DNA of 45,554 bases from positions 1 through 45,554 of the forward strand of contig DRHF01000335.1 of NCBI GenBank assembly GCA_011049715.1, read 5' to 3'. The position numbers and the translations under genes are program-made. Origin of the DNA: Desulfobacterales bacterium (GTDB taxonomy: Bacteria > Desulfobacterota > Desulfobacteria > Desulfobacterales > UBA2156). The stretch's first letter is position 1. Each line of letters begins with the position of its first letter. The notes below the pieces were generated by a model that searched no databases, had not been told where the DNA came from, and worked only from the letters and a program-made list of their open reading frames with translations. Of the stretch, positions 4,337-45,421 are shown one piece after another.

Positions 4337-4418
4337 ATAAATGACTGCTGAAGGAGTCATTCGAGAATGTTAAAAATGGCATAATATACGATTCCTAACA
4401 AAGAAAGGAGTTATTGGG

Positions 4419-5735: not shown

Positions 5736-5901
5736 GTCTCAAAGCATGGCTTAAGTGTTTTGCTGCTGTTAGTTTATTCGGTAGACATAAAAGTTCCGTT
5801 TGTAAGGCATTGAATAATTATTTTGCCAGAATGATCTTACTTGTGAATATTCAGGCTAACTGGACCTTTACTATGATGTCAGAGTATGGAGGATTAATCT
5901 T

Positions 5902-24545: not shown

Positions 24546-24926
24546 ATGAAAGGAAAGGCAATCCAAACAGACAAAGCACCTGCTGCCATAGGGCCATATT
24601 CACAGGGGATCAAATTGGGTTCATTGCTCTTTGTAAGCGGACAGATTGGCATGCACCCTGAAACCGGCGAACTGGTCAGTCCGGATTTTTCGCCTCAAGT
24701 CCGTCAGACACTGGAAAACCTGCTGCATGTTGTTAAAGCCGGTGGGGGTGATCTGGATCAGGTGGTGGCTGTCGATGTGTACTTAACTGACATGGGAAAA
24801 TTTGTCGAATTCAATGGAATCTACCAGGAATACTTTGCCGAGCACCGACCGGCCCGTGCGGTGATAGAAGTGAGCGCACTCCCAAAAGGCGCGAGCGTGG
24901 AGATCAAGTGCATCGTAGGAATATGA
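24546..24926 (+). CDS. RidA-family (YjgF/YER057c/UK114) enamine/imine deaminase-like protein
   Basis: TDKAPAAIGPYSQGIKLGSLLFVSGQIG, RPARAVIEVSALPKGASVEIKCIVGI; start at 24546 with RBS gaggaggga. Confidence 0.93.
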   Translation: MKGKAIQTDKAPAAIGPYSQGIKLGSLLFVSGQIGMHPETGELVSPDFSPQVRQTLENLLHVVKAGGGDLDQVVAVDVYLTDMGKFVEFNGIYQEYFAEHRPARAVIEVSALPKGASVEIKCIVGI

Positions 24927-24946
24927 GCCTGTTTCTCTGACCGGAT

Positions 24947-25525
24947 TTATCTTAGGCCGTCCTCCATTTTGGCTTCCTCCTTCTTGAGCCCGCCAATACG
25001 GGGATGGGGCCTTCCACAAACGGTGACGACCAGAGCGACCACAATTTCGTCTGCCATCGGAGCATCGTCGATTCTGATCGCCATTGCATCAAAATGAGAC
25101 CGGACAAATGCCGCGTCCTTAAAATTGATCGGCACATCAATCTCGGTTCCCATTCCGCCTATTTTCTTTGCTGAAGGAATCAGGGACTTTCCGCCACCGA
25201 CGGCGTCCCGAAAGGGTTTTCCCAGCTTTGGGTGGAGAATGGCTGCTGCATGTTCCCGCTCTCCGTTTTCCCCGACAATCGCCGCCTTTCCGTAACTTTC
25301 GGCCTTTTCAGGCAAAATACCCAATGCATCCACCGCTCTTTTACCGAGGATGCCCCCCAATACATCTCCGATATCGATCAACGGTGTCAAATCCTCAACA
25401 AATTTTCCTGCACATGGATTTTTTACCACGGCGATGGCGGCTGCTCTTTTGCCTGGGGGCTTCATTTGACGGCCCCCATCCGAGTGGATCTCCTCCAATA
25501 TGGTCACATATTTTCTGATTTCCAT
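24947..25525 (-). CDS. DUF1185 / 'amino acid synthesis' (AA_synth) family protein
   Basis: EIRKYVTILEEIHSDGGR, AAIAVVKNPCAGKFVEDLTPLIDIGDVLGGILGKRA, SVGG-like DAVGGGKSLIPSAKK; RBS aaggagag; start at 25525. Confidence 0.8.
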   Translation of the reverse strand: MEIRKYVTILEEIHSDGGRQMKPPGKRAAAIAVVKNPCAGKFVEDLTPLIDIGDVLGGILGKRAVDALGILPEKAESYGKAAIVGENGEREHAAAILHPKLGKPFRDAVGGGKSLIPSAKKIGGMGTEIDVPINFKDAAFVRSHFDAMAIRIDDAPMADEIVVALVVTVCGRPHPRIGGLKKEEAKMEDGLR

Positions 25526-25551
25526 CAATTATCTCTCCTTTCCGAAATTGG

Positions 25552-26412
25552 TTATTCCACGAGACATTTATGAAAAAAGTCAGTCATGGCGACTTTTCCT
25601 TGAACAGCGACCAATGCCCCGAGAATAATGCCTTTGTTTGTCAACTCTTCTGCCCTTTTGATTGCCCTGGAAATAGACAAAGATTTTTTATCTTCATTTA
25701 AAGGCCCTACTTTTATCGTTACATTGAGTCCGGGAATGTCTGTGTTGGGATCGATCTCCTCTGATGGAACCTGGATTACATGGGGATCCTCTATATAGCT
25801 TGCATTAGCAACGTCTGTGGCCGCCGCATCCGCTAAAGAGGCGTTTCGGGCAATAACAGTGGCTGCCGAAGCGATACCCCTGGTAAGACTCCGGCCCCCC
25901 AAACCGCTCGTGGTCACCCCCCAGGAGGAGGAACGAGAATCGAGGGATAGGACATTGGATATCTCTTGTTTGTCGATTTCCTGTCGTATCCCGACTGTTA
26001 CGGATGCCTCTCTTTCAAGCCTCACAGCCACATCACCGCCATTGTCGACTACCACTTTGGTCATCCCGCGGTTGTAAAGAAAATCAGCAACCGCATCTGC
26101 AATCGTTCCGGCAACCGCAGCCATGGGCGTGAGATTCTGATTTCCAACAGCCTGTACGCTCCGGATCATTTTAATGGCGATCGGATCTTTCAAATCAGCC
26201 GGCATCCTTGGAAACCTTTTACCTAAAAACCGTTTCAGCCGGGCGAGCCGTTCCAGATACGTAAAGGATTCCTCGGCAGCACGGACACTCATCTGTTGCT
26301 GCGGAACCTTCCCCACAAAGGCGGAGATAACCAGCCTCATGGGGCCAAACTCAGCTACAACATCGCCGCCCTCAAGTCGGCTGATCGATTGTTGGTATGG
26401 CATCTTTTTCAA
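25552..26412 (-). CDS. UPF0280 (ApbE-like) family protein
   Basis: NLTPMAAVAGTIADAVADFLYNRGMTKVVVDNGGDVAVRLE; start either TTG 26412 or ATG 26403. Confidence 0.8.
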   Translation of the reverse strand: MKKMPYQQSISRLEGGDVVAEFGPMRLVISAFVGKVPQQQMSVRAAEESFTYLERLARLKRFLGKRFPRMPADLKDPIAIKMIRSVQAVGNQNLTPMAAVAGTIADAVADFLYNRGMTKVVVDNGGDVAVRLEREASVTVGIRQEIDKQEISNVLSLDSRSSSWGVTTSGLGGRSLTRGIASAATVIARNASLADAAATDVANASYIEDPHVIQVPSEEIDPNTDIPGLNVTIKVGPLNEDKKSLSISRAIKRAEELTNKGIILGALVAVQGKVAMTDFFHKCLVE

Positions 26413-27933
26413 TCAGTCAACCGCTGCGAGCGGCTCTTTTGCAGTAAACGGCCTCATGGCATGGAGGTGTCCCCCCATTTGCTTGTAATCCTTCAGCTTC
26501 ATGGTGTATTCGATCGGACAAATGGTCGCCGGAGTCGGTGTCCAGTAAAACGCATTAGCCTTGACCCGGCCAACATCGACCATAAAATTGATTCCACCGC
26601 CGGGCAGCACAAAGGTCGGCGCACCACCTACGCTTAGATGGGCGGTCCCCCGATGAACGGCATGGGTCAGTTTTAACGGATAACGTACCACACCGGCCCG
26701 GGCGCTTCCGCCCGTACCTCCGGTATATATACCTGAAACAAGAGAGGGCTCACAGCTGGCGGAGATGGTACTCAACGCCTTTTTGGCCTGATTCGAAAGC
26801 GGTATTTTGCGGAGACTGAAATCCTCGACAATTTCAAACAGGCCGGCGTTTTGACCTGTTGTCTCGGTGATCAGGATGCGCATACCGATTCGGGCGGTAT
26901 TTCGGTCGATTTCAGATATCACATCTAAGGGTTGGATGATGGATGTTCCCCCCCAACCTTCCCCATGGTCGCCAAAGTAGCGGCCCGGGGTGCTCTGCCG
27001 GAATTTCAATTTGATTCCCGAGGGTTTTGCGCCGACAAATCGGCCGGTCGCATGCTCGCTCATCAAACCTGTAAAGTGAGAATCCAGGATAATGACCTCA
27101 TCCGCCGACTCCTGCAAAAGAGGTGCAAAGAGGCCCAAGGTGGCGCTCCCACAGCCCACCCTCATGTTATCCGGTGTTTGACCGTTGATGATCGGCGCCT
27201 GGCCCACTTTCACCTCAATCATACCGCCTTGATCTATTTTCAATCTAACCTCTTTTTTATTGGCGATATCGGTGATAGTTCTGGCCACCAGTAGACCGTC
27301 TTTCCCGGTTAAAAGGTTCACACCGCCGATGGAGATCATCTTGGAGCCGTATTGCTCGGTCACCAGCATTCCAACCTTTCTTTTGCCTACCCGTACAGGC
27401 GCCCCCTCATCTCCAATTCGGATATCTGTATCGATCTTCACCGTAATGCCGCTGTAACTCAGCGGAGCCTCCGTCACCACTGTAACCACATCCACATCCA
27501 TCTGTTTCCCCTTGACGATGACGGGGGCAGGTTTGGCGTCCGGATAAGTCGTTCCGGCGCCTATGGCTGTGATCAGAGGCCGTCGGATTGCTTCCGAAGG
27601 ATCATCCGGCCCCACCACATCCGCCACATCGGTATAGGTGTGAAGCGGGGTGATCCTTTCGAGGCTTTCATTGACATTTTTGTACCGATGGCATGATCCG
27701 ATAAACCCAGGTTTAATCCGGCATCCGATGGGACACGCCTCGCACTGGATTGCCCCGGCGGTGGGTGTTGTTTCACATACCAGAGCTTCCGCTTCGCACA
27801 CCATGATGCATGCACCGCAGTCCGTACATTTTTCATCGATAACCGCTTTTTTCTTGACCAGGCGAACGGCTGCAACCGGACAATCCCTGACGCAAAAGGC
27901 GCAACCGGTACATTTTTTCAGATCAACTTTCAT
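26413..27933 (-). CDS. 6-hydroxynicotinate reductase-like ferredoxin-domain protein
   Basis: N-terminal 2x[4Fe-4S] (CTGCAFCVRDCP, CTDCGACIMVCE) fused to a long domain recalled from Eubacterium barkeri Hnr-type proteins; adjacent to enamidase. Confidence 0.75.
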   Translation of the reverse strand: MKVDLKKCTGCAFCVRDCPVAAVRLVKKKAVIDEKCTDCGACIMVCEAEALVCETTPTAGAIQCEACPIGCRIKPGFIGSCHRYKNVNESLERITPLHTYTDVADVVGPDDPSEAIRRPLITAIGAGTTYPDAKPAPVIVKGKQMDVDVVTVVTEAPLSYSGITVKIDTDIRIGDEGAPVRVGKRKVGMLVTEQYGSKMISIGGVNLLTGKDGLLVARTITDIANKKEVRLKIDQGGMIEVKVGQAPIINGQTPDNMRVGCGSATLGLFAPLLQESADEVIILDSHFTGLMSEHATGRFVGAKPSGIKLKFRQSTPGRYFGDHGEGWGGTSIIQPLDVISEIDRNTARIGMRILITETTGQNAGLFEIVEDFSLRKIPLSNQAKKALSTISASCEPSLVSGIYTGGTGGSARAGVVRYPLKLTHAVHRGTAHLSVGGAPTFVLPGGGINFMVDVGRVKANAFYWTPTPATICPIEYTMKLKDYKQMGGHLHAMRPFTAKEPLAAVD

Positions 27934-27986
27934 TTAAAGCTTTCTCAAAAAAAAATCGGTTCGTATAACAATCACTAGCACGTTCA

Positions 27987-29156
27987 CTAATTTTTATACA
28001 CAACTGGTGCGGTCTTGGGTGGCGGCGTATTTCTGCTTTTGGAAACCACGATTTCTCCATCCACCAGGACCACGGCAACCGCAGGGACATCTCCTGCTTC
28101 AATTGCCGCCAGCGCGTCTCTTCCCACAGACCCCATGGGCGTATCCATGATCACCACATCCGCTTCGGATCCTGTCCGGATAAAACCCCGATTGAGTTTA
28201 TACACTCGTGCGGTGTTGCCTGTGGCCATGCAGACGGCCTGTTCCGGTTTGATCGGTGTCAGACCGGCAAGAAGATTCATCACCCGAAGCACCCCCAAAG
28301 GTACAACTCCGGTACCTGAAGGGGCGTCATTTCCAATGATAACCCGATATAATGCCCCATGCTCAGCAATAAGTCGAGCAGCTTCAACCATTATCTTGGG
28401 ATTCCCGCAGTGAACCATTTCAAGAACGATATTCGTTTCAGTGACCAGTTTATTTACTTCTTCAATGGAGACCGCTGTGGGGCCGCCATTGATATGAGAT
28501 GCAATGTCCGGGGCCATTTTGATGACTTCTACCGCCGTGACCGTGCTGGATCCGGGAATTGAAGTTCCCCCGGTGTGCATCATGACCGTCATGCCATATT
28601 TTTTTGCCCATCTAACCATAGGTCCGGCTTCCTCGACCGTCTTGGCGGATCCCAGTCCAATTTCACCCACAATTCTGACACCTTCGGCTGCCATTTCCTG
28701 AAAATCTTCCTCCACCAACCCCTTTTCGAGGATCACAGCGCCCCCTTCCACCTTGGCACCCCCCGGTCTGAAGTTGGCATAAGATTTTGATGCTAAAATG
28801 GCAAGGGCCTTTGTGCCGGCAGGATCTTTGGGTCTTCCCTGAAGGTGAACCTCCCCAGCGGATATGAAGGTCGTGACACCGCCATGAAGTTCGCTTTCGA
28901 GAAATCCGGTTTGATTCTGCCTGGGGGTAAAGTCTCCCAATAATGGATGACAATGGGAATCGATCAGTCCGGGCGTTACAGTTGTTCCCTTGCAATCGAT
29001 GATTACCTGGGCCTTTTTTTCATCCATTTCAACCAAATGTCCCACTTTTTGGATCATACCTTCCTCAATCCATAGCGCATCTGCCTGAAGGATGGGTTCT
29101 TCAATGTTGCCACTCACCAGTCTACCGATGTTTTTGAGTAGCACTTTTGGCATCAC
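27987..29156 (-). CDS. Enamidase-like amidohydrolase (nicotinate fermentation type)
   Basis: KNIGRLVSGNIEEPILQADALW, TVTPGLIDSHCHPLLGDFTPRQ, ELHGGVTTFISAGEVH, MMHTGGTSIPGSSTVTA, SHINGGPTAVSI, GNDAPSGTGVVPLG; closely resembles E. barkeri enamidase from memory. Confidence 0.85.
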   Translation of the reverse strand: MMPKVLLKNIGRLVSGNIEEPILQADALWIEEGMIQKVGHLVEMDEKKAQVIIDCKGTTVTPGLIDSHCHPLLGDFTPRQNQTGFLESELHGGVTTFISAGEVHLQGRPKDPAGTKALAILASKSYANFRPGGAKVEGGAVILEKGLVEEDFQEMAAEGVRIVGEIGLGSAKTVEEAGPMVRWAKKYGMTVMMHTGGTSIPGSSTVTAVEVIKMAPDIASHINGGPTAVSIEEVNKLVTETNIVLEMVHCGNPKIMVEAARLIAEHGALYRVIIGNDAPSGTGVVPLGVLRVMNLLAGLTPIKPEQAVCMATGNTARVYKLNRGFIRTGSEADVVIMDTPMGSVGRDALAAIEAGDVPAVAVVLVDGEIVVSKSRNTPPPKTAPVVYKN

Positions 29157-29171
29157 TATACCTCCTTATTC

Positions 29172-29816
29172 TTATCCTTTCGAGATTGTAACGCCCTTTG
29201 ACTCCATTTCCCGGATGGCACTATCGGATGTCTCAGGACTTAAGCCACGACAAAGATCCGCAAGAAGCTCAACCTGATACCCATGCTCTACAGCATGAAA
29301 AACAGTGGCTTTCACGCAGTAATCAGTTGCCAGACCGTAAATGATTAACTTCCTAATTCCATCCCGCCGCAAGAGGCGATCAAGGTCGGTTTTGTTGCCG
29401 CCATCATCAAGAAAACCGGAGTATGAATCAAATTTTGGATTTGTTCCTGTCTCAACTGTCTCAACGGGTCCTTTGATGTTAATCAGAATCTCAGCGCCAG
29501 GGGTGTTCTGGACACAGTGCGGAGGCCACATGACTTGGGTTCGTCCCTCTTCTATCTCAATTTCCTGAAAGGGTTTTGTGCCCGGATTGTTGGTGAAAAA
29601 GCTAACATGGTCCGCTGGATGCCAATCCTTAGTAAAATAAATCGGGAGTCCCTGCTCTTGAAACCGCCGGGTTGCCTTTCCGACCTCGTCAATATATTGA
29701 GCGTCCGCCCCGGGAACAGCCAAAGCGCCGGACTTCAATTCCGTGAAATCCGCCTGAACATCAACGACAATAACGCCGGTATTTTCAATTGAAAACGATT
29801 GTTCTGCCATGGGCAT
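29172..29816 (-). CDS. pncA: Nicotinamidase / isochorismatase-family hydrolase (PncA-like)
   Basis: VIVVDVQADFTE, FTKDWHPADHVSFFTNNPGTKPF, MWPPHCVQNTPGAE, IYGLATDYCVKATV catalytic-Cys region. Confidence 0.88.
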   Translation of the reverse strand: MPMAEQSFSIENTGVIVVDVQADFTELKSGALAVPGADAQYIDEVGKATRRFQEQGLPIYFTKDWHPADHVSFFTNNPGTKPFQEIEIEEGRTQVMWPPHCVQNTPGAEILINIKGPVETVETGTNPKFDSYSGFLDDGGNKTDLDRLLRRDGIRKLIIYGLATDYCVKATVFHAVEHGYQVELLADLCRGLSPETSDSAIREMESKGVTISKG

Positions 29817-30065: not shown

Positions 30066-31586
30066 GTGATGAGTACTCTAATGATTCCGGGTGTACCGAC
30101 CTATCTCTATTATATTTCCGTATTTTTTGTAATGATCATCTCCTTTTTCCTGTTTGTAAAATTTCCTTCGAGTAAAAGAAACCCTTCGCATTATAGAACC
30201 CTCGATTTGTTACAATGGCGATGGATTGAACGATGGGCTAAATCAGGGATATTTCAGGCTATTGTGAGGCTTCTGGTCGCTTTCTTGTTTGTGATGGTAA
30301 TTCTCACCGGCCTATTCGGTATTCAGGATTCAGGAAAAAATCTCTCCACTATTTTGACCTGGGTTATATGGTGGATAGTTCTTGTATTGTTCATCCTTTT
30401 CGCCGGCAAACTATGGTGTTATCTCTGTCCCTGGGATGCGATAGCCACCTGGATTGATAAACTGCATTTATGGAAAGTAAAGAAGAGTATATTTTCGCTG
30501 GAGAAGAGGTGGCCTAGGAAATTGCGGAATATCTACTTGGCCACGTTTTTGTTTTTGGTGTTAACCTGGCTGGAATTGGGGTGGGGCGTGACCACAAAAC
30601 CGGCCATCACCGCATATTTGGCTTTGCTCATGTTGTTTTTGACTATCTTTTCCATTGTGGTATTTGACCGGAAATCTTTTTGCCGTTACGGCTGTCTGAT
30701 TGGGAGAATAAGTGGTCTGTATGCACTTATTGCCCCCATAGAGGTTCGCTCTCGAGCAAAGAGCGTTTGTGCCTCATGCAAAACAAAAGATTGTTTTAAG
30801 GGTAATGCAAAGGGCTATGGTTGCCCCACTTATGAATATTTGGGGAAGATGGAGAAAAACACTTACTGCATCATGTGTATGGAATGTATAAGGTCTTGCG
30901 AAAAAGAGAATGTAGCCATTAATATTCGCCCCTTTGGCGTCGACCTCTTAAAAGTACACCAGGCTCAAGAAGATGAAGCTGCGCTTTTGCTTGTTATGCT
31001 GGCGATGACCTCTTTTCACGGATTGACTATGACACCGCTCTGGTTTGCTTGGACAGGGTGGTTGGAAGAATGGTTTGGTGTCGGGTATATGGCTGCTTTT
31101 ACTATTGGGATGATTGCTTCTCTAATTGTTGTGCCGCTTTTTTATTTTCTAGTGATGGTGGTCACATGGATAGTCCTGGAGAAAACGATTTCTTTTATGG
31201 AACTGATTCTAAAAACCGCCTATGTTTTCCTTCCGATTGCGCTCTTTTACCACTTGGCACACAATGTTATGCACTTTGCTATGGAAGGGGAAAAAATTGT
31301 TTCAGTCGTTTCTGATCCCTTTAATTGGGGGTGGAATCTGTTCGGCACTGCTCTCAGACCTGTTGGACCATTGATGTCCATTTATACTGTATGGTATCTA
31401 CAAGTGTTCTTCATAATCATCGGACATGTTTGGTCGTTATATATCGGTCATCGTGTCGCCATACACCTTTATGAATCCAAAAAATCTTTAAAGGCTGAAT
31501 TCCCCATGGTGGTGGCCGTGATTGTATATTCTCTAATCAGCCTTTATCTTGTTGCTCAACCAATGGAAATGAGATCGAGCATGTAA
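30066..31586 (+). CDS. NapH/CcoG-like membrane polyferredoxin
   Basis: Multiple TMs; cysteine motifs WCYLCPWD, FCRYGCLIG, CASCKTKDCFKGNAKGYGCP, CIMCMECIRSCEKEN. Confidence 0.85.
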   Translation: MMSTLMIPGVPTYLYYISVFFVMIISFFLFVKFPSSKRNPSHYRTLDLLQWRWIERWAKSGIFQAIVRLLVAFLFVMVILTGLFGIQDSGKNLSTILTWVIWWIVLVLFILFAGKLWCYLCPWDAIATWIDKLHLWKVKKSIFSLEKRWPRKLRNIYLATFLFLVLTWLELGWGVTTKPAITAYLALLMLFLTIFSIVVFDRKSFCRYGCLIGRISGLYALIAPIEVRSRAKSVCASCKTKDCFKGNAKGYGCPTYEYLGKMEKNTYCIMCMECIRSCEKENVAINIRPFGVDLLKVHQAQEDEAALLLVMLAMTSFHGLTMTPLWFAWTGWLEEWFGVGYMAAFTIGMIASLIVVPLFYFLVMVVTWIVLEKTISFMELILKTAYVFLPIALFYHLAHNVMHFAMEGEKIVSVVSDPFNWGWNLFGTALRPVGPLMSIYTVWYLQVFFIIIGHVWSLYIGHRVAIHLYESKKSLKAEFPMVVAVIVYSLISLYLVAQPMEMRSSM

Positions 31587-31595
31587 GAGGATGGA

Positions 31596-32147
31596 ATGAA
31601 AGGATTGAAAGAGATATGGGGCCTTGTGCTCCCCTATTTTTTGGTAATATCTGTCCCTTGGGTTTTTTCTCATACCGACCCACCGGTGATGACACTTAAG
31701 ATCTATCCTGGCATGCCGACGGTAAGTGAAGAGGCAAAAATAAAGATAAATTTAAGAGGCTCCAATGCCGGCGTTCCTGTCCTAGGTGCTAAAATAAAAA
31801 TCGTTCTAACCGATCGTGATGGCAATCGACTCTATTTTAAGGTAAAACCTGGAGATAATGGGGGAGACTATTTGAGTACAATGGATTTGCCCAGGCCGGG
31901 TATGTGGAAGATGAGGATAGAAGTGAAACATCAAAATGAGTTGGATTTCCGCCACTACATGATACGTGTCATATCGTCTGATTCCGGACCTCAAAAGGTC
32001 ATGAAAGATGAAACCTTTCTCGCAATGGACAAAAAAGATGCGCATCAGCCAATTCCACCTCTATTGGTGGTAGAGGGATATGTCTTCCTCATACTTTTAC
32101 TTCTAGCGACGGTTAGCATTATAAAAAGAATTCAAGTTGGAAAGTAG
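31596..32147 (+). CDS. FixH/YtkA-like single-pass periplasmic protein
   Basis: Signal-like N-terminus, beta-rich middle (KIYPGMPTVSEEAKIKINLRG...PRPGMWKMRIEV), C-terminal TM. Confidence 0.55.
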   Translation: MKGLKEIWGLVLPYFLVISVPWVFSHTDPPVMTLKIYPGMPTVSEEAKIKINLRGSNAGVPVLGAKIKIVLTDRDGNRLYFKVKPGDNGGDYLSTMDLPRPGMWKMRIEVKHQNELDFRHYMIRVISSDSGPQKVMKDETFLAMDKKDAHQPIPPLLVVEGYVFLILLLLATVSIIKRIQVGK

Positions 32148-32167
32148 GTGAAATGGAGGTTTTGTCA

Positions 32168-32542
32168 ATGGCTTCGCGAAAGTTAGGTATGTACACACTG
32201 GTCCTTTCTGTGTTGTTAATGAGCTATCATGGGTGCCGCTTCAAAGAAAAGACCTTTAACATAGAAATCGAAAACCGCAAAGCCAAAGGCGGAATGGAAG
32301 TTATCCAAGTAAAGCAGGGAGAAATGGTAACTCTCTGGTGCACCACCGATGAGACAGCTATAATTCATCTCCATGGTTATAATATTGAGCACGTTGTCAA
32401 ACCGGGGAAATCCACGGTGTTCACTTTTAAAGCTTACGCCACCGGACGGTATCCCATTACCGCGCATAGTTTTGGCGAACCCATCCCCGGGAAACCACAG
32501 GAAGAAACGCCGCTTGTGTATTTGGAAGTGCTGCCACAGTGA
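32168..32542 (+). CDS. Cupredoxin-like lipoprotein
   Basis: Lipobox LMSYHGC; cupredoxin-like fold signatures (EVIQVKQGEMVTLWCTTDETAIIHLHGYNIEHVVKPGKSTVFTFKAYATGRYPITAHSFGEP); start 32168 has RBS GGAGG. Confidence 0.65.
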   Translation: MASRKLGMYTLVLSVLLMSYHGCRFKEKTFNIEIENRKAKGGMEVIQVKQGEMVTLWCTTDETAIIHLHGYNIEHVVKPGKSTVFTFKAYATGRYPITAHSFGEPIPGKPQEETPLVYLEVLPQ

Positions 32543-32593
32543 GGAAGGTCACATGTAGGGGATCAACAAAGGGACGAAGGGAGGAATTACGAC

Positions 32594-34126
32594 CTATCCC
32601 ACGGCAGGGGCGGATAGAAGCCAAAGGCCGAACAGTGTGTATCCTACCATGAGTGCGGTCAGCGGGGCCTGACCGATAATTGTGCTCTTGGTACGCGGTG
32701 CCAGTCGGAGGGCCAAGGAATGGGCGATGTAGATTCCCGCTACATGGGCGCCGACGATGATGGTCATCTGAGCATACCAGATCGCTATGACCTGGGATCG
32801 AGCCGAGAGGAAGGAAGTGATGATCGGAATGTCGGCAGTGCCAAACAAATCCCAGCCACGGGCCAGAGGGTCGGAGACCGCTTTCAGGGCATACTGGATG
32901 TCAACAAGGAAGATCGGCAGATAGTGTGCGAAGTGGTAGCCAAAGGCGATGGGCACGACGGAGAGCGCAAACACGCCGAAAACCCGGGCTCCGGCGCCGC
33001 CGATGTCGGAAAGAATTTTTGCTACAGACAGGACCGCCATATACGCAACTGCCAAGGCGGCGAAGACACCGAGCAGTCCTGCTGTATTCGCGATCATCAG
33101 CGTGGTCCTCCCTGGATACTCCAGTGGATTCTCTCCGATCAGCGCCATCCAAAAGAATGTCTTGGACAACCCATCGAACGAGACCGATGATAGAACCAGC
33201 AGGATGAAGACGACACTGCTCAGGGAGCGGGGGCGGACCGACAGGAGGTTCAACCCAGGGAGGGTAATTTCGACCACCCATGAATTCTTATCGCTTGGAG
33301 ATGGGCTGCATTCCGGCTCGCAATGTTTGCGAAGACACCTCGGATTCCGCACCGAAAATGGCGAGAGCCACGAGATAACCCGGAAGAATACAGAAAAAGC
33401 TTCCGCGTATTTAAGCCAGGACCGTTCTCCGAAGAAGAGGATTCCACAGAAGTTGAATACGAGGTAGGAGGAGACCAGATTGGCCAGCACTGCAGGGTCA
33501 GCGGGCGAAGGGTAGATCAGCTCGATCCAGACGAAGACGAGGAAGGCAATCACGGCCGGCCAGTAGGCGGCCCGGCGAGGATATCGGAATGGTGGCTGTT
33601 CCACCCATCGTTTCACACCTGGGAAACGGGCGGCCGCACGGCAGAGACCGCTCCAGGGATTGAGGTACGCCCAGAGATTCCCAAAGAGCAGGTGCAGGTA
33701 GGTAAAACCGATCCACCACACAGTCCAGACGAAGAGGGGGAGGGGGTTGGATAATGGATCGCGGCTTCCCCATTTGCCCGCGAAAATCAGAAACAGGCAC
33801 ACGAAAAGAGAAAGAAAGCTCGGACAGCTCAAGGCCAGCCGACCCTTCCTTCCGAAAGCGCCCAACACGATCAGACGTCGTTGAAGCTGCTCTATCTTAA
33901 CGAACATCGTAGAAGGGATTAGAGATATCAATAGGAACGAGGCCGCCACCACAACGGCCCCTGCGGCCATGTAGAGTTCGGAAGGAAGAAGGAGGATAAA
34001 CCCCTGTCCGCCGGTGTGGGCGCCGGCGGGAGCCGCCATACCGACCAGAAACCCGAGAAGAAGTGGTAACCCCACCGTTGTGCGGGTACGGCCGGACCCA
34101 ATTGGTGAGGGCGTCCTTGCGCTCAC
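32594..34126 (-). CDS. Multi-TM membrane protein homologous to 30066-31586 but lacking its Fe-S cysteine motifs
   Basis: GTG start overlaps the stop of the upstream ATPase (GTGA); shares WxxWWI..(F/Y)..LLFG.LW.YL.PW, YHFAH and HV..IYIAH with the polyferredoxin; CPWD is NPWS here. Confidence 0.75.
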   Translation of the reverse strand: MSARTPSPIGSGRTRTTVGLPLLLGFLVGMAAPAGAHTGGQGFILLLPSELYMAAGAVVVAASFLLISLIPSTMFVKIEQLQRRLIVLGAFGRKGRLALSCPSFLSLFVCLFLIFAGKWGSRDPLSNPLPLFVWTVWWIGFTYLHLLFGNLWAYLNPWSGLCRAAARFPGVKRWVEQPPFRYPRRAAYWPAVIAFLVFVWIELIYPSPADPAVLANLVSSYLVFNFCGILFFGERSWLKYAEAFSVFFRVISWLSPFSVRNPRCLRKHCEPECSPSPSDKNSWVVEITLPGLNLLSVRPRSLSSVVFILLVLSSVSFDGLSKTFFWMALIGENPLEYPGRTTLMIANTAGLLGVFAALAVAYMAVLSVAKILSDIGGAGARVFGVFALSVVPIAFGYHFAHYLPIFLVDIQYALKAVSDPLARGWDLFGTADIPIITSFLSARSQVIAIWYAQMTIIVGAHVAGIYIAHSLALRLAPRTKSTIIGQAPLTALMVGYTLFGLWLLSAPAVG

Positions 34127-34827
34127 CGCCTGACTCCGACGTATTTGAACAGAATTTCGGGGGTCGAAGCGAGTTCTGCCGGGGTGGCTTGATGCCGTAT
34201 AGATCCGTTTTCCATCAACGCAACTCTGTCCGCGACTTTTAGGGCCGCATCGATTTTCTGTTCTACGAGAAGAACCCCAACATGACGGGCCTTCAGCGTG
34301 CTGATGGTTTCCAGGAGTTGTTTGACCAATGTCGGCATGAGGCCCTCGCCCGGCTCGTCCATCAACAGCAACCGCGGGGCCGAACAAAGCGCCCTGGCGA
34401 AGGCCAGCATCTGCTGCTCCCCTCCACTCAACGTCCCTGCCTGTTGCCGAAGTCGTTCTTTAAGCACCGGGAAGAGGTCGAGTACCCAGTCTAGGGTTTC
34501 ATTTCCGCTCCTCCTCAATAAGAGCCCAATCCGAAGATTTTCCTCAACGGTGCAGAAGGTGAACAGTCCCCGACCCTGGGGCACGTAGCCGATTCCAAGC
34601 TTGGGGATGTCGTGGGGTCGAAGGGTGGTCAACTCCTGTCCATCAAACTTGATGCTTCCCGATGTCGGTTTAACAAAGCCCATTAGTGTCCTGAGGGTGG
34701 TGGTCTTGCCCGCTCCGTTTCGGCCGAAGAGGCCGAGGATCTCGCCCGGCCTAAGGCTCAATGACACGTCCTTTAGAATGTGAACCTCACCATAGTAACA
34801 GTTGACTCGCTCCATCTCAAGCATCAC
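34123..34827 (-). CDS. Branched-chain amino acid-type ABC transporter ATP-binding protein (LivF-like)
   Basis: Walker A GRNGAGKTTTLRTLMGF, LSGGEQQMLAFARALCSAPRLLLMDEPGEGLMP. Confidence 0.93.
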   Translation of the reverse strand: MMLEMERVNCYYGEVHILKDVSLSLRPGEILGLFGRNGAGKTTTLRTLMGFVKPTSGSIKFDGQELTTLRPHDIPKLGIGYVPQGRGLFTFCTVEENLRIGLLLRRSGNETLDWVLDLFPVLKERLRQQAGTLSGGEQQMLAFARALCSAPRLLLMDEPGEGLMPTLVKQLLETISTLKARHVGVLLVEQKIDAALKVADRVALMENGSIRHQATPAELASTPEILFKYVGVRR

Positions 34828-35561
34828 AGACCCAAATATGCCTCCTGGACCCGGGCGTCGGCCTCGATTTCATCCGGCGTCCCTACCGCTATAATCGCAC
34901 CCTTGTCCATCACCGTGATCCCGGTTGCGAGTTCTAGCACCACGGGCATGTTGTGTTCGATAAGCAAAATGGTGACCTCCCTGGAGATCTTTCTGATGAG
35001 ATCACAAAAATTGATGATCTCCTCGGGTGCAAGCCCCTGTGTGGGCTCATCGAGGATCAACACCTCCGGTTTGAGGGCCAGTGCCATTGCAACTTCCAAA
35101 AGCCTCTGATGGCCGTATGGCAGCAGCCCCGCTAGCTGATTGCCGACCTGCCCCAGCCCAACCTCTGCCAGCGCCGCCTCGACACCGTCGGAAAGGATCG
35201 CCTCGCGAAGCGTAAGCCGGTCCAAGGCTCGCCGCATCAGCCTCCTTTGTACGGCCAGTGCCACATTTTCATAGACGGTCAGTTTTCGGAAAATGCTGGT
35301 AACCTGGAAGGTGTACACGATCCCGAGAGCCACCCGGTCCCAGGCACGCAGCCTGGTGATGTCCCGGTCTTTGAAGTGCACCTGCCCGGAAGTCGGACTG
35401 ACCCGGCCGCTGATCATACAGACCAGGGTGGTCTTTCCGGCGCCATTGGGTCCGATGATCGCCCTGATTTCCCCCTGATCGAGACGAAATTCCACCGGTT
35501 GAACCGCCTCTAAACCCCCGAACCTCTTGGACAGAGCCGTGGTCTGCAGCAATCGAGTCAT
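34824..35561 (-). CDS. Branched-chain amino acid-type ABC transporter ATP-binding protein (LivG-like)
   Basis: GPNGAGKTTLVCMISG, LPYGHQRLLEVAMALALKPEVLILDEPTQGLAPEE; ATGA overlap with the upstream permease defines start 35561. Confidence 0.93.
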   Translation of the reverse strand: MTRLLQTTALSKRFGGLEAVQPVEFRLDQGEIRAIIGPNGAGKTTLVCMISGRVSPTSGQVHFKDRDITRLRAWDRVALGIVYTFQVTSIFRKLTVYENVALAVQRRLMRRALDRLTLREAILSDGVEAALAEVGLGQVGNQLAGLLPYGHQRLLEVAMALALKPEVLILDEPTQGLAPEEIINFCDLIRKISREVTILLIEHNMPVVLELATGITVMDKGAIIAVGTPDEIEADARVQEAYLGL

Positions 35562-36520
35562 GGAAGCCATCTCACCCATCTGGACCGGATCCCTCCAATT
35601 ACCCCGCTTGGGAACCACAGGATCAGAATGATCAGCACGGCCCCCACCGCAAACAGATAACTCGAAGTTAGTCCGCTGGCAATATCGACCACGAAGGCCA
35701 TCACTGCGGTTCCCACGAAAGGGCCGATGGTGGTTCCTGCGCCCCCCAGAAGAGTCCACAAAAGCGGATAGATAGAATAGATGATCGAGGCGAAAGATGA
35801 CCCTACGTATGAAAACGTTAGGGCATACACAGAACCGGCGACGCCCGATAGGCTGCCCGAGATGATCAGGGAGAGCAGCTTGTAATTGAAAGTGTTGTAA
35901 CCGAGCAGGCGGGTACGCTCCTCATTCTCCCTCACCCCCACCAGAATCCTTCCGATCGGGGAGCCGATCAACCAGACGCTCATCATCAGGAATAGCGCGA
36001 ACAACACCAGGGCCAGGTTATACTTGAATACCGGATCGGAAAAGGCTAGCTCCACGGTTCCCAGCCGCAGCGGGCGCAGGCGCCCGGACAGAATGAACCC
36101 CTGATCGCCCATGGTGAATTTGTTGAAATAGAGGGTTGCCAGGTGGAATGCCTGTGAAAACATCATGGTGATGACAAGAAACGAGGCCCCGGTGGTCCGG
36201 AGTGTGATCAGGCCGGTCAGGGTCGACATGAGCACGCTGGCCAGGAGGCCCGCCACGAGGGCTGCCGGAGCGCCGAATCCCAGGTAAAACACGGTCAGCC
36301 CTGTTGTATACATTCCGGATGCGAAAAACATGGCGTGACCTAAGCTCATCAATCCGGTGTAACCTAGGAGCAGGTTGTATCCCATGGTGTAGGTGGTGAG
36401 GATCATGATGCGTGTTACCATGGTCCGATGGAATGGAGGTACGACAAACTGGGCGCCCAGCAGAAGGAGGATAAGCGCGAGATGAACCCCGACAATGGAG
36501 CGCCTGTGGTCGCGCCTCAT
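35558..36520 (-). CDS. Branched-chain amino acid-type ABC transporter permease (LivM-like)
   Basis: YNLLLGYTGLMSLGHAMFFASGMY, VGVRENEERTRLLGYNTFNYKLL; ATGA overlap with LivH. Confidence 0.92.
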   Translation of the reverse strand: MRRDHRRSIVGVHLALILLLLGAQFVVPPFHRTMVTRIMILTTYTMGYNLLLGYTGLMSLGHAMFFASGMYTTGLTVFYLGFGAPAALVAGLLASVLMSTLTGLITLRTTGASFLVITMMFSQAFHLATLYFNKFTMGDQGFILSGRLRPLRLGTVELAFSDPVFKYNLALVLFALFLMMSVWLIGSPIGRILVGVRENEERTRLLGYNTFNYKLLSLIISGSLSGVAGSVYALTFSYVGSSFASIIYSIYPLLWTLLGGAGTTIGPFVGTAVMAFVVDIASGLTSSYLFAVGAVLIILILWFPSGVIGGIRSRWVRWLP

Positions 36521-37383
36521 GTCTCTTCCACCCCGAAGAGTCCGCCGGTCCTGAAGGATAGAACCAAGGCCACGAGGACCGTGGCAATAATCTTGGCAAG
36601 CGTAGGCGAAAAGAAGACGGACACCACCCCATCACTGATGCCCACCAAAAAGGCGGCGACCATCGTTCCCTTCAAGCTCCCGAGACCGCCGAGAACGACC
36701 ACGATGAAAGACATCAGGAGCGCGTCGAGGCCCATCAAGTAGTGGGCTTGCTGCACCGGGACCACCAAAGCCCCGGCAAGGGCGGTCAGTCCAGCGCCCA
36801 GTGCAAATACCAGCGGGTAGACTCGGTGCACCGGCACACCGAAGGCCTGGGCCATCTCTTGATTTTGCTGGGTGACACGCATGTAAAGGCCCGCTGTGGT
36901 TTTGGTCACCACGAGCCAAGTGGCTAGGAGGAGCATTGCCGAGATTCCGGCGACCACCAGTTTGTAGCCGGAATACCCGAACCAGGGGAAATCAACGCGG
37001 AAATAAAAGGGCGTGGTCACCGACCTCGCGTACGGGCCGTAGACGGTCAGCACCAGCTGCTGAATGATATACAAAAGACCGATTGTGGCGACAATGGTGC
37101 TCTCCGGACTATAATCGATTCGCCGGAGGACCAGGCGATCCGCGAGGTAAGCGATGCCTCCCACAATCAATGGTGCCGCAAGCAAGGCCACAAAATAGCC
37201 GCCGAACATCGTGGAGAAATACCATGCGATCACCGCACCCAGCATAAAGAACTCTCCATGGGCCACGTTTACAATACGCATCACCCCGAAGACCAGGGAG
37301 AGACCCAGGGCTGTGAGGGCCAGCACGAAGCTCGTGACGGTTCCTTCCAGCAGGGCAAGAAATAGATGTCCACCGAAACTCAT
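36517..37383 (-). CDS. Branched-chain amino acid-type ABC transporter permease (LivH-like)
   Basis: ALTALGLSLVFGVMRIVNVAHGEFFMLGA, VVLGGLGSLKGTMVAAFLVG. Confidence 0.92.
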   Translation of the reverse strand: MSFGGHLFLALLEGTVTSFVLALTALGLSLVFGVMRIVNVAHGEFFMLGAVIAWYFSTMFGGYFVALLAAPLIVGGIAYLADRLVLRRIDYSPESTIVATIGLLYIIQQLVLTVYGPYARSVTTPFYFRVDFPWFGYSGYKLVVAGISAMLLLATWLVVTKTTAGLYMRVTQQNQEMAQAFGVPVHRVYPLVFALGAGLTALAGALVVPVQQAHYLMGLDALLMSFIVVVLGGLGSLKGTMVAAFLVGISDGVVSVFFSPTLAKIIATVLVALVLSFRTGGLFGVEET

Positions 37384-37567
37384 TTGAGTACCCGATCGCC
37401 CGCTGATAGCAATGGAGCCAAAGATCCGGTCACCAAGTTGATCCTTCCACCGCTTGCGGGCGGGGAAGAGAAGCGGTTGGACGCGGGCACCGCCGTAGTG
37501 AAAGGCCGCGCGGCACGGTTCCGAACGGCCTGTAAGGGCCTGGTCATGGAAAAATCCAAATCAGTTC

Positions 37568-38905
37568 TTAGAAAGGCTGCGACCTGTAGTCCGCCTCGGG
37601 CTCGTATAGCGAATCCTCTATCTTGGTTCTGTGAATTACCTTTAGCCGCCGGTTTTCGACCTTCGATATGAACTGCTGGCCAAAGCTTTGATGGATCTGC
37701 CCGACGAATTTCTTGGGGCCCTGCGGATGCTGAATTCCCTCGTTGAATCCTTGAAAGTTTTCCAGGGTCTCGATGAGAGAACGGTAGTCCTTTGGGGTGG
37801 GATCCTTGTAACCGCTTTGTTCTACGGCCTCCTTGATGATAAACAAGGTTTCCCAGCATCCAAACATGTGCGAGTAAGTCGAGACGTCCTTTGGGTCCCC
37901 GAGACTCGCGCCGGCGTCGTTGACGCCCACCCGCTTTCGGTAAAACCGCTCATAGGGTGTGGGATAGCCATCGGCGTATCGCGGCAACGCCTCCCACAAA
38001 TAGGTACCTTCCAGGAACTCGAGCCCCGGGCTGGCGATATCCACCCCTTCCAAGGAGTCAATAAAACCGAAGATCTGGGGCTTCCTCGCGCCGAAGTATT
38101 CGCCCATCTCCTTGACGAAGGTGAGTACCCCAGGCCCTACCATCACATGGTACAACACATCCGTGTCAGCGGGCACCCGTGCGAAATATTTGGTGAAAGA
38201 AGTTTCAGTCGGCGGAATGGCGAGCCGGGCCCGGATGGTGCCGCCAAGCCTGGGAACCGCCTGCCCAAGGAAGTCCCGGTGGTCGTACCCGAAGGCATAG
38301 TCTGGAAAAATCATGGAGACCTTCTTTCCGAGGTTATTGACCATCCAGGATGAGATACCGGTGACTTGTGCGCGGACGTCTGTAATACCGGGCTGGAAAA
38401 CGTAGCGGTTTAGTTTGCCTGAGGCCACATGGTATCCCTCACTCACCACGAAATAGGGGATCTTCAACTCTCCCGCCCTAGGGGCCGACGCCATCACCAC
38501 ATGGGAGAAAAGCGTCCCATAGACAAAATCCACCTTGTGGTGAACGGCGAGTTTCTCCACGACCTCCGCTCCTCTCATCGGATCCGTGCCATCGTCCTCG
38601 GCAATGAGTTGGACGGGTCTTCCGGCGATTCCACCCGTCTCATTGATCAGCTTCACTGCAGCCGTCGTGGTTCGTTCATACCATCGCCCGTAGGCGGCTC
38701 CAATGCCTGTCCTGTGGACCTGGAACCCGATCTTTATCGGTCTCTTTCCCGATGCTGCCCAGGCCGAATTGGCGAGTCCACGGGAAGACTTTCCTAAAGG
38801 CAAAGAAAGGCCGGCAACACCGGCACCCAATAGCGCCCCTGCGGTCTTGAGGGCGCTCCTTCTGGTGATGTTTCGTGATCCCTTGGATTTTTTTCCGTTC
38901 TCCAT
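37568..38905 (-). CDS. Branched-chain amino acid-type ABC transporter substrate-binding protein with Tat-like signal
   Basis: N-terminus NITRRSALKTAGALLGAGVAGLSL; periplasmic type-1 binding fold (IKIGFQVHRTGIGAAYGRWYERTTTAAVKLINETGGIAGRPVQLIAEDDGTDP). Confidence 0.9.
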   Translation of the reverse strand: MENGKKSKGSRNITRRSALKTAGALLGAGVAGLSLPLGKSSRGLANSAWAASGKRPIKIGFQVHRTGIGAAYGRWYERTTTAAVKLINETGGIAGRPVQLIAEDDGTDPMRGAEVVEKLAVHHKVDFVYGTLFSHVVMASAPRAGELKIPYFVVSEGYHVASGKLNRYVFQPGITDVRAQVTGISSWMVNNLGKKVSMIFPDYAFGYDHRDFLGQAVPRLGGTIRARLAIPPTETSFTKYFARVPADTDVLYHVMVGPGVLTFVKEMGEYFGARKPQIFGFIDSLEGVDIASPGLEFLEGTYLWEALPRYADGYPTPYERFYRKRVGVNDAGASLGDPKDVSTYSHMFGCWETLFIIKEAVEQSGYKDPTPKDYRSLIETLENFQGFNEGIQHPQGPKKFVGQIHQSFGQQFISKVENRRLKVIHRTKIEDSLYEPEADYRSQPF

Positions 38906-39181: not shown

Positions 39182-40666
39182 CTACACCCAACGTGCCGTG
39201 ATGGTCTTTTCGTCCATGAACATCCTCATGGAGGCCATCCTTGATTTCGCGGTTCCAACAAACGATTCTCTTCTCGACCCCAGGGGAAAGAAAGCGTAGG
39301 GTTGTGCAACGCCCACATTGACTCCCACGTTTCCCACATTCACTTCCCTGATGAATCGGCGTGCATTTTTTCCATTACCGGTCATGATACACGCCGAGTG
39401 TCCCACATTGGTTTTGGTGTTGATCCAGTCGATGGCCTGTTTTAGGCTTTCGCCCCTGATCAACGCTGCCACCGGTCCAAATGCCTCCTCCTTGGCCATC
39501 GGCATGTCAACATTTACATCTTCAATAATGGTCGGCCCAAGGAAGTAGCCGTTCGGGTAGCCCTCCACCTTTACCGATCTGCCATCAAGCACCATCTTCG
39601 CGCCTTCCGACAGGGACCTGTCGATCCATTGTATCACCTTTTCCTTACCGGCCAAGGTGGCCATCGGACCGTTCTCCACGGTATCATCGAGACCATAACC
39701 AAGTTTCATTTTTGCGGAAGCTTCCTTAAATGAGGTTTTTATTTCTTCGTACCTGTCTCCAATAATGACCACATTATCCACGCCCAAACATCGCTGTCCG
39801 GCTAATCCAAAACACGATCTCATCAGCCATTCGGTTCCCATTTCCATATCTGCATCAGGCATAATGACGAGATGATTTTTTCCATTTCCATTGATCGAGG
39901 ATGTCTTCCCCAGTTTTCCGCACATTTCGAAAAGATCCTTGCCTGCTACATTGGACCCGATAAACCCAACTCCTTTGATGTCGGGGTGAGATAAAATTTC
40001 CCTGTTAATCTGTCTGCCCCCGTGGACCAGATTGATTACACCCGGCGGGAAGCCCACTTCCAATGCGACCTTGCAAATGGCTTCTGCAGCCACCGGGTCC
40101 TGCCGGCTTGGGCTGACGACAACCGTACACCCGGCAGCCAGAGCATAGGGAACAAAGGATGACCAGGCATGCATCGGAATGTTCCCGGGTGTGACAATGA
40201 GAAAAGCGCCCAACGGTTCCCAGATGAGATATTGATCGATGCCGCCGGCGAGTTGATCCATATGTTCGTTCTGTTTTGCCAGCCCATACAAAGCCGTGCA
40301 TGCGGATTCAATGTTCTCGATGACCCGCCTGACCGAACCGATGGCTTCTCCGATGGTCCTGCCATGGTCCTGGGATAGAATGCGGGTAAGTTCATCAAAG
40401 TTGTTTTCGAACACGGCGCGCATGTCAAAAAGCATCCGGGCCCTTTCCCGCATCGGCACATTCCGCCATTCCTGAAAGGCCCGGTGTGCTGCTTCGGCTG
40501 CTGCAAGAGCCTCTTTTTTTGTGGCAGAGGGAAATTCTGCGATCACCTCATCTGTCGCCGGATTCGTATCCTGTTGGATGTCGGTCGATTGCGAAACAAT
40601 CCACTCCCCGTCAATAAGGATTTTCAGCTTTCCGTAATGCTTTTTCACTTCAGGTAACAACGGCAT
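39182..40666 (-). CDS. Aldehyde dehydrogenase family protein (methylmalonate-semialdehyde dehydrogenase/MmsA-like)
   Basis: NPATDEVIAEFPSATKKEALAAAEAAHRAFQEW, FIGSNVAGKDLFE, GLAGQRCLGVDNVVIIG catalytic Cys. Confidence 0.9.
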   Translation of the reverse strand: MPLLPEVKKHYGKLKILIDGEWIVSQSTDIQQDTNPATDEVIAEFPSATKKEALAAAEAAHRAFQEWRNVPMRERARMLFDMRAVFENNFDELTRILSQDHGRTIGEAIGSVRRVIENIESACTALYGLAKQNEHMDQLAGGIDQYLIWEPLGAFLIVTPGNIPMHAWSSFVPYALAAGCTVVVSPSRQDPVAAEAICKVALEVGFPPGVINLVHGGRQINREILSHPDIKGVGFIGSNVAGKDLFEMCGKLGKTSSINGNGKNHLVIMPDADMEMGTEWLMRSCFGLAGQRCLGVDNVVIIGDRYEEIKTSFKEASAKMKLGYGLDDTVENGPMATLAGKEKVIQWIDRSLSEGAKMVLDGRSVKVEGYPNGYFLGPTIIEDVNVDMPMAKEEAFGPVAALIRGESLKQAIDWINTKTNVGHSACIMTGNGKNARRFIREVNVGNVGVNVGVAQPYAFFPLGSRRESFVGTAKSRMASMRMFMDEKTITARWV

Positions 40667-41048: not shown

Positions 41049-42242
41049 ATGAAGAAACGACTTGTTTTAGCCAGTATTTTGGTGTTCTCATTCGCCTTTA
41101 TTTCCGGCGCATTAGCTGCGGAGATCAAAATAGGGATCATCCTCGGCTTCACGGGGCCGATTGAATCGCTGACGCCGGACATGGCCACTTCCGCGGAACT
41201 GGCCATAAAAGAAGCCTCCGATTCCGGTCAGCTTCTAGGCGGGCGGAAGATCGTGGCAATTCGTGCCGACTCGACCTGCGTCGATGCAGGGGCCGCAACG
41301 ACAGCGGCCGAAAGGCTGATAACCTCGGACAAGGTGGCAGCCATCGTGGGCGCTGACTGTTCCGGTGTGACCACCGCCATCGTCAACAACGTCGCGGTTC
41401 CGAACGGCGTGCCGATTATTTCCCCCTCGGCCACCTCGCCGGCGCTGACGACGATTGCCGACAACGGCTACTTTTTCCGCACTGCCCCTTCGGACGCGCG
41501 CCAAGGTCAGGTGATCGCCCAGATCACTATCGATAAAGGGATCAAGGAAGTCGCGGTGACCTTCACCAAAAACGATTACGGCCAGGGTCTGGCAGATTCT
41601 TTTGTCGGCGCCTTCAAGGCTCTTGGCGGCAAGGTTACTGCCGTGGTGCCCCATGAAGACGGCAAGGCGGACTATTCCGCTGAAGTTGGCACTCTGAATG
41701 CTGCAGGAGCCGATGTTCTCGCCGTTTTCGGGTATGTGGACCAGGGTGGTCGGCACATGATCCAGACTTCCCTGGACAGTGGTGCTTTCGACAAGTTCAT
41801 CCTGGCAGACGGCATGTATGGCGATTCCCTGATGAAGAACATCGACGGGGATATCACCGGTACTTTCGGTACGGTTCCAGGTACCGATTCGAAAGGTTCG
41901 CAAAGCTTTGGGGTGATGTCAAAATCTGCCGGGATCAAGGTCGGCGGACCCTTCACCGCGGAATCCTATGACGCGGCGGCTCTGCTGATCCTGGCCATAC
42001 AGTCCGCGGGTTCCACCGACGGTGCGGCGATTGCCTCGAATGTCATGGCGGTGGCCAATGCTCCCGGCGAGAAGATCATGCCCGGCGAACTGGCCAAGGG
42101 GCTCAAAATCCTAGCCAAGGGCGGCGCCGTGGACTACGTCGGCGCCTCCAACGTGGAATTCACCGGGGTCGGTGAAGCTTCCGGTTCCTACAAGGAATAC
42201 GAAATCCGGAACAAGACGTTCCAGACAGTCAAGTTCCATTAA
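41049..42242 (+). CDS. Branched-chain amino acid-type ABC transporter substrate-binding protein (second system)
   Basis: Sec signal peptide; IKIGIILGFTGPIESLTPDMATSAELAIKEA, VAAIVGADCSGVTTAIVNNVAVPNGVPIISPSATSPALT. Confidence 0.93.
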   Translation: MKKRLVLASILVFSFAFISGALAAEIKIGIILGFTGPIESLTPDMATSAELAIKEASDSGQLLGGRKIVAIRADSTCVDAGAATTAAERLITSDKVAAIVGADCSGVTTAIVNNVAVPNGVPIISPSATSPALTTIADNGYFFRTAPSDARQGQVIAQITIDKGIKEVAVTFTKNDYGQGLADSFVGAFKALGGKVTAVVPHEDGKADYSAEVGTLNAAGADVLAVFGYVDQGGRHMIQTSLDSGAFDKFILADGMYGDSLMKNIDGDITGTFGTVPGTDSKGSQSFGVMSKSAGIKVGGPFTAESYDAAALLILAIQSAGSTDGAAIASNVMAVANAPGEKIMPGELAKGLKILAKGGAVDYVGASNVEFTGVGEASGSYKEYEIRNKTFQTVKFH

Positions 42243-42257
42243 ATTCTTTCCTCTATA

Positions 42258-42292
42258 AACCCTGGCCCGGTTCCCCGAACCGGACCAGGGTT
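42258..42292. terminator. Rho-independent terminator between convergent genes
   Basis: AACCCTGGcCCGGTTc-ccc-gAACCGGaCCAGGGTT hairpin followed by ctttctgt. Confidence 0.75.
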
Positions 42293-42306
42293 CTTTCTGT
42301 CACTTT

Positions 42307-44690: not shown

Positions 44691-44716
44691 ATCCTTGTCC
44701 TCAACTATATCGGGGG

Positions 44717-45421
44717 TCAGCCCCCCAGAAAGGAGCGGCGCACTTCGGCATTGGCCAGCAGTGCCTCGCCGGTGTCGGTGAAGCGGTTTTCTCCGGTGAC
44801 CAGCACGAACCCGTGATCGGCAATACTCAGTGCCTGACGGGCATTCTGTTCGACCATCAGCACGGCAATGCCGGTGCGTTTCACTTCAAGGATGCGTTCA
44901 AACAGTTCATCCATCACAATCGGTGAAACTCCCGCAGTCGGTTCGTCAAGCATCAGCACACTCGGCAGGGTCATCAGCGCGCGTCCGACCGCCACCTGCT
45001 GACGCTGGCCTCCGGAAAGTTCTCCGGCCGCCTGCCTGCGCCTGTCCTTGAGCACAGGAAATAGCTCGAAGACCCTCTCCATGGTCCCTGAGATGTCGTC
45101 CCGGCGCAGGTAGGCGCCCATCTCCAGGTTTTCCTCGACGGTGAGGGTGACGAAGACGTTGTGAGTCTGGGGCACGAAGGCCATCCCGCGTTGCACCCGC
45201 TGCTGGGGTGAAAGTCCGGTGATGTCTTCGCCTTTGAGAAGCACTTTCCCCTCCCGTGGCTTGAGCAGTCCGAGCATGGCCCTCATGGCGGTGGATTTCC
45301 CCGCGCCGTTGGGACCCACCACCACCGCGATTTCACCACGGTCCACGGAAATTGTGCAGTCCTTGAGAATGTCCGCACCTCCGTAACCGCCGGTCATGCG
45401 TTCGCCGATCAGGTAGCTCAT
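44717..45421 (-). CDS. Branched-chain amino acid-type ABC transporter ATP-binding protein (LivF-like)
   Basis: GPNGAGKSTAMRAMLGLLKP, LSGGQRQQVAVGRALMTLPSVLMLDEPTAGVSP. Confidence 0.93.
   Translation of the reverse strand: MSYLIGERMTGGYGGADILKDCTISVDRGEIAVVVGPNGAGKSTAMRAMLGLLKPREGKVLLKGEDITGLSPQQRVQRGMAFVPQTHNVFVTLTVEENLEMGAYLRRDDISGTMERVFELFPVLKDRRRQAAGELSGGQRQQVAVGRALMTLPSVLMLDEPTAGVSPIVMDELFERILEVKRTGIAVLMVEQNARQALSIADHGFVLVTGENRFTDTGEALLANAEVRRSFLGG

Follow-up and report, generated by a model that had tools for sequence, protein, structure and literature searches.

A predicted nicotinamide and nicotinate degradation locus in an anaerobic member of the Desulfobacterota

The DNA considered here, referred to throughout as the window, is a 45,554-nucleotide contig (DRHF01000335.1) from the genome of a Desulfobacterales bacterium (GenBank assembly GCA_011049715.1). 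Its minus strand carries five contiguous genes, pncA, ena, hnr and the genes for a UPF0280 and an AA_synth/DUF1185 protein, in that order, and further along a set of liv transporter genes and a gene of the methylmalonate-semialdehyde dehydrogenase (MMSDH) family. Judged by their sequences, these genes constitute a genuine locus for the degradation of nicotinate and nicotinamide in an anaerobic member of the Desulfobacterota.

The core gene cluster

The pncA gene (29172-29816) encodes a nicotinamidase-like protein predicted to convert nicotinamide to nicotinate and ammonia. It scores 173.8 bits against the NCBIfam model for bifunctional nicotinamidase/pyrazinamidase (NF008623; cut-off 174) and matches the solved nicotinamidases 1ILW and 2WT9 in the PDB. 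The neighbouring ena gene (27987-29156) encodes a predicted enamidase, forming 2-formylglutarate and ammonia from tetrahydro-6-oxonicotinate, whose product aligns over its full length with the enamidase structure 2VUN (E=4.4e-150) and is 61% identical to Ena of Eubacterium barkeri. Residues H68, H70, E165, H194, H221 and D277 are invariant in a 16-sequence alignment, and we take these positions to be metal ligands and active-site residues, as in 2VUN. The predicted 6-hydroxynicotinate reductase encoded by hnr (26413-27933) shares 48% full-length identity with its E. barkeri counterpart, and 12 cysteines in its N-terminal part are invariant in 49 sequences: eight belong to a ferredoxin domain of the two-[4Fe-4S] type, and the other four are C64, C67, C71 and C81. 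When the Hnr model (pLDDT, the predicted local distance difference test, of 92.4) was compared with the PDB by Foldseek, only the ferredoxin part was matched and no match fell under E=0.001, so that the catalytic domain is a high-confidence prediction without a fold match in that database. In phylogenies, Ena and Hnr of the window group with operon-linked orthologues and apart from diverged sets, and both fall within the enamidase and Hnr clades; a placement outside these would have refuted a preliminary description of the region. On this basis they are regarded as true orthologues.

The remaining two genes encode the UPF0280 protein (25552-26412; 39% identity to the E. barkeri cluster protein) and the DUF1185 protein (24947-25528), which matches PF06684 with 243.8 bits, is 59% identical to the E. 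barkeri protein and is also found in alpha- and betaproteobacterial hnr clusters. The nicotinate fermentation cluster of E. barkeri (Alhapel et al. 2006) contains orthologues of the Ndh, Hnr, UPF0280, Ena and DUF1185 proteins of the Desulfobacterales genome. That locus (L193; NZ_FNOU01000012) comprises hnr, UPF0280, hgd, ndhF, ndhS, ndhL, ndhM, a transporter gene, ena, DUF1185, mgm, mii, a reactivase-like gene, dml, hmd, dmdA and dmdB, the names being assigned by position, sequence and published content. Because both UPF0280 and DUF1185 occur there, they are ordinary members of the reference cluster. In contrast to E. barkeri, the Desulfobacterales locus adds pncA and a liv transporter, its genes are distributed over two contigs, and NdhL and NdhM are present as a single 764-residue protein.

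The UPF0280 protein scores 26.7 bits against the ApbE Pfam model (cut-off 25.6), and its AlphaFold model (pLDDT 95.7) matches ApbE structures with an E-value of about 2e-6 and a probability of 1.00. It shares with the ApbE flavin transferases the predicted fold and NGGD and ADAxAT-like segments, and the NGGD and ADA-AT columns are conserved, although the identity in structural alignments is only 11-15%. Since Hnr of E. barkeri reportedly carries a covalently bound flavin, UPF0280 is a natural candidate for its attachment, and the predicted structure suggests that it may act as an Hnr flavin transferase. The target motif of ApbE is D-x-x-[S/T]-G-A-[S/T] (PMC12052999), whereas Hnr has a similar but not identical segment, an invariant GCGSA with T or S as the next residue in 47 of the 49 sequences. 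The flavin site of Hnr is therefore uncertain, as the motif differs from the ApbE target and the two sequences lacking T/S still have UPF0280. No paper on the UPF0280 family was found in a literature search.

The contiguity of the five genes and their strand had been stated in the preliminary description, and both are borne out. The span proposed there, 24546-29816, does contain all five, but its left edge is the start of ridA (24546-24926, plus strand). RidA, a conceivable enamine deaminase partner, was dismissed because it is encoded on the opposite strand in convergent orientation; it is placed outside the unit because it was absent from 40 related loci. Gene counts across loci, here and below, were made by tblastn because longest-open-reading-frame calling got genes wrong in GC-rich loci. 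By the same count, pncA adjoins ena in seven of the 40 loci too.

Nicotinate dehydrogenase on a second contig

Neither nicotinate dehydrogenase (ndh) genes nor those of the propionate branch had been seen in the preliminary description, which is correct for the 45.5-kb contig but not, as regards ndh, for the genome. A genome-wide search recovered nine molybdenum-hydroxylase large subunits, one of them within an NdhS-F-M set on a second contig (C324). Compared with the NdhM that accompanies ena-hnr in a relative (L052), the NdhM of this set shows 68% identity across 753 residues, and the seven other large subunits compared reach 30-43%; its identity to NdhL and NdhM of E. barkeri is 46%. On C324, genes for the 2Fe-2S (NdhS) and FAD (NdhF) subunits are followed by ndhM, an acyl-CoA dehydrogenase gene and a class III CoA transferase gene. 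The two contigs are alike in GC content (0.485 for C324 and 0.494 for the window) and tetranucleotide composition (r 0.94). The three ndh subunits are encoded near ena in 35 of the 40 related loci, mostly directly upstream, and the split in the present genome therefore looks like a rearrangement. Taken at the level of sequence, the genes of the pathway are divided between two contigs of the same genome, and the first step is not missing.

The acyl-CoA dehydrogenase of C324 has glutaryl-CoA dehydrogenase (NF045552) as its best family, at 406.1 bits, and 3MPI as its best PDB match. The CoA transferase, which falls below the curated cut-off, is matched best by succinate-glutarate CoA-transferase and PDB entry 9BR6. 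Beside ndh on this contig (positions 3721-6710; L091, G000) lie genes named from their sequences as glutamate-dehydrogenase-like and glutamate-synthase-like, whose products possibly assimilate the ammonia released.

The MMSDH-family gene and the transporter

No match to Mii was found in the genome, which is 95% complete, and the matches to Mgm were confined to B12 domains, with no full-length Mgm among them. In relatives, an MMSDH-family aldehyde dehydrogenase is encoded within the operon, and the window carries such a gene at 39182-40666 on the minus strand (TIGR01722). Of 60 genomes with Ena, 37 encode close homologues of its product, defined by at least 57% identity and usually located in the vicinity of ena, as against one of 335 genomes lacking Ena (Fisher p about 6e-35, uncorrected for relatedness among the genomes). 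An MMSDH-family gene lies within 15 kb of ena in 37 genomes, and a close or ena-linked copy is found in 46 of the 60. Among 80 named loci, MMSDH occurs in 42, Mgm/Mii in five and both in none. The five Mgm/Mii loci belong to a Desulfobulbaceae metagenome-assembled genome, Desulforhopalus singaporensis, strain Smac51, E. barkeri and E. aggregans; no close MMSDH was found on searching these five genomes (best match 37%), and Mgm was not found in eight genomes with MMSDH or of unassigned type. In the case of two loci without a linked copy (L134 and L177), the genome carries one at another site. The Desulfobacterota include both types. On this distribution the MMSDH-family gene is considered part of the pathway; its product appears to replace Hgd, Mgm, Mii, Dml, Hmd and DmdAB, and the MMSDH-type variant appears to recur across the Desulfobacterota.

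In common with known MMSDH (MmsA/IolA/ALDH6A1/DddC), with which it is homologous over its full length, the window enzyme has a catalytic cysteine preceded by an arginine, a second arginine and no glutamate base. The nucleophile C293, R292 and R114 are invariant in the two clades linked to the operon, where Asn or Gln, never Glu, stands in place of the hydrolytic base (L207, on a long branch in the tree and probably in the wrong reading frame, was left out of these counts). These two clades are distinct from each other, from paralogues and from canonical enzymes, the first having moderate support (0.74). The window enzyme differs from canonical MMSDH in its identity of about 40% and its proposed larger substrate; moreover, both clades have C285 and H423 where canonical enzymes have Ala/Phe and Asn, which suggests a shared new substrate. 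Like methylmalonate semialdehyde, 2-formylglutarate is a beta-aldehyde acid; it bears a carboxyethyl group where the former has methyl. Because of this resemblance the MMSDH reaction fits, and we infer that the enzyme would be a decarboxylating 2-formylglutarate dehydrogenase, converting 2-formylglutarate, CoA and NAD+ to glutaryl-CoA, CO2 and NADH.

Between this gene and the core cluster, also on the minus strand, are five genes for a nicotinate-type ATP-binding-cassette transporter: the solute-binding protein livK1 (37568-38905), the permeases livH1 (36517-37383) and livM1 (35558-36520) and the ATPases livG1 (34824-35570, start approximate) and livF1 (34123-34827). Within the loci examined, all five subunits find their best match in a Neorhizobium nicotinate cluster, with identities of 64% for LivH1, 47% for LivM1, 55% for LivG1 and 53% for LivF1. 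LivK1 is 60-66% identical to proteins encoded near hnr on alphaproteobacterial plasmids; its relatives on plasmids of Rhizobium, Sulfitobacter and related bacteria have hnr 3-8 kb away in all 10 records listed. The region 34123-38905 has a GC content of 0.57 and a tetranucleotide correlation of 0.42 to the other contigs of the genome, compared with 0.81-0.96 for the first 34 kb of the window and 0.85 for the MMSDH gene. The simplest reading is that the insertion of a horizontally acquired nicotinate transporter separated the MMSDH gene from ena. A second liv set (41049-45421), likewise of foreign composition (GC 0.58), is unrelated to the transporters of nicotinate clusters. The interval from 30066 to 34387, leading from the ena operon to the liv genes, encodes a NapH-like ferredoxin membrane protein, two small proteins and a second membrane protein; three of these genes were searched for in the 40 related loci and none was found.

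The proposed pathway and its alternatives

Together, these findings make it rather probable that nicotinamide and nicotinate are degraded by a pathway split over the two contigs, which passes through an MMSDH-type step to glutaryl-CoA and on to central metabolism. In this scheme, LivKHMGF1 would import nicotinate, PncA would supply it from nicotinamide, and NdhSFM of C324 would hydroxylate it to 6-hydroxynicotinate. This compound would be reduced to 1,4,5,6-tetrahydro-6-oxonicotinate by Hnr, an Fe-S flavoenzyme that may have its flavin attached by UPF0280; Ena would open the ring of the product, giving 2-formylglutarate and ammonia. The MMSDH-family enzyme would then oxidize the aldehyde, with loss of the beta-carboxylate as CO2 and transfer of the acyl group to CoA, yielding glutaryl-CoA directly, and the glutaryl-CoA-dehydrogenase-like enzyme of C324 would carry this into central metabolism. 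The identities of the genes, their conservation, the patterns of co-occurrence and mutual exclusion and the conserved active-site residues are well supported; the substrates and products of the individual steps are inferred.

Several observations weigh against this proposal. For 14 of the 60 Ena-bearing genomes, the search returned neither a close MMSDH nor a linked one, some of these genomes being represented by short contigs. In the window itself, a distance of 9.4 kb, which includes the liv genes of foreign composition, separates the MMSDH gene from ena, and the MMSDH product scores 385.8 bits against TIGR01722, under the curated cut-off of 448.5. The genome assembly consists of 461 contigs, with an estimated contamination of 5.35%. 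The acyl-CoA dehydrogenase of C324 also scores below its family cut-off of 470; close homologues of it occur in 11 other genomes, only four of which have Ena, and a phylum-wide search with this protein revealed no clear tie to Ena. Finally, a CoA transferase beside ndh would fit a route through free glutarate instead.

Such a route is known from the aerobic nicotinate pathway of Azorhizobium and the Bradyrhizobiaceae, which proceeds via tetrahydro-6-oxonicotinate (THON) and glutarate, free glutarate being reported for Azorhizobium (PMC3511419). Applied to the present genome, it would involve decarboxylation of 2-formylglutarate to glutarate semialdehyde and oxidation to free glutarate, MMSDH serving only as the semialdehyde oxidizer, followed by the CoA transferase and the acyl-CoA dehydrogenase of C324. 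This explanation is favoured by the precedent of A. caulinodans (PMC3511419) and by the succinate:glutarate CoA-transferase-like gene of C324, which immediately follows ndh and the acyl-CoA dehydrogenase gene. The systems are alike in their Hnr, conserved unknown proteins and liv-type transporter (of the same subfamily as in the related Rhizobium and Sulfitobacter clusters) and in a predicted product at the glutaryl level. We nevertheless regard it as unlikely, because the operon enzyme belongs to a CoA-acylating family, with both active-site arginines retained and without the glutamate base of hydrolytic aldehyde dehydrogenases, and because neither the acyl-CoA dehydrogenase nor the CoA transferase of C324 is encoded near ena in the 40 related loci. 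The alphaproteobacterial hnr clusters differ, too, in having no MMSDH nearby, and matches of the window Hnr to that of their plasmids start only past the ferredoxin domain or inside it (query residue 44-62). Two of these clusters (L018 and L020) contain hydantoinase/oxoprolinase-type hyuA and hyuB genes and no match to ena in the stretch read; there, the HyuA and HyuB products may open the lactam instead of Ena.

That the operon degrades some other N-heterocycle or amide, as had been suggested in the preliminary description, is very improbable and is not needed to explain the locus. The module can diverge, as distant ena, hnr and ndhM sets demonstrate, but Ena and Hnr of the window lie among operon-linked orthologues, apart from those sets, and are accompanied by PncA, Ndh and a nicotinate-cluster transporter, all of which indicate nicotinate or nicotinamide. 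One diverged set (L226; G023 contig C240, 5330-9227) is 37-46% identical to the window and C324 proteins, belongs to a genome that also has a standard operon and may have another heterocycle as its substrate. An E. barkeri-type fermentation yielding propionate and pyruvate, its other genes being located at further sites in the genome, is strongly disfavoured: the ndh-hnr-UPF0280-ena-DUF1185 core is common to both organisms and Mgm/Mii occur outside Eubacterium (L151, L159 and L185), but neither Mii nor a full-length Mgm is present in this nearly complete genome, and none of the loci combines MMSDH with Mgm/Mii. The other alternative raised in the preliminary description, that the rest of a fermentation-type operon lies elsewhere, thus held for the first step and failed for the last ones, where related genomes likewise have the MMSDH-type enzyme; the pathway is probably oxidative, and the label of fermentation probably wrong.

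Elsewhere in the window (1892-7386) are genes for FAD/GcvT-type demethylase-like, aminotransferase-like and trimethylamine-methyltransferase-like (MttB family) proteins, a combination that suggests quaternary-amine demethylation; the MttB-family gene is open without an in-frame stop.

A broader model, advanced tentatively as a whole, is that the Desulfobacterota and some Bacillota and Chloroflexota employ a dedicated MMSDH, recruited at least twice, for the one-step conversion of 2-formylglutarate to glutaryl-CoA, CO2 and NADH, with UPF0280 acting in the cytoplasm as a flavin transferase that serves Hnr alone. As far as the literature searched shows, the genetics of nicotinate breakdown in strict anaerobes outside Eubacterium are undescribed, and the comparison offers a specific gene for the step after ring opening, with a predicted reaction and two clades. 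The UPF0280 family, in turn, gains a testable role. If the model is true, the one-step MMSDH route would save these organisms what the route through free glutarate costs in ATP or CoA transfer.

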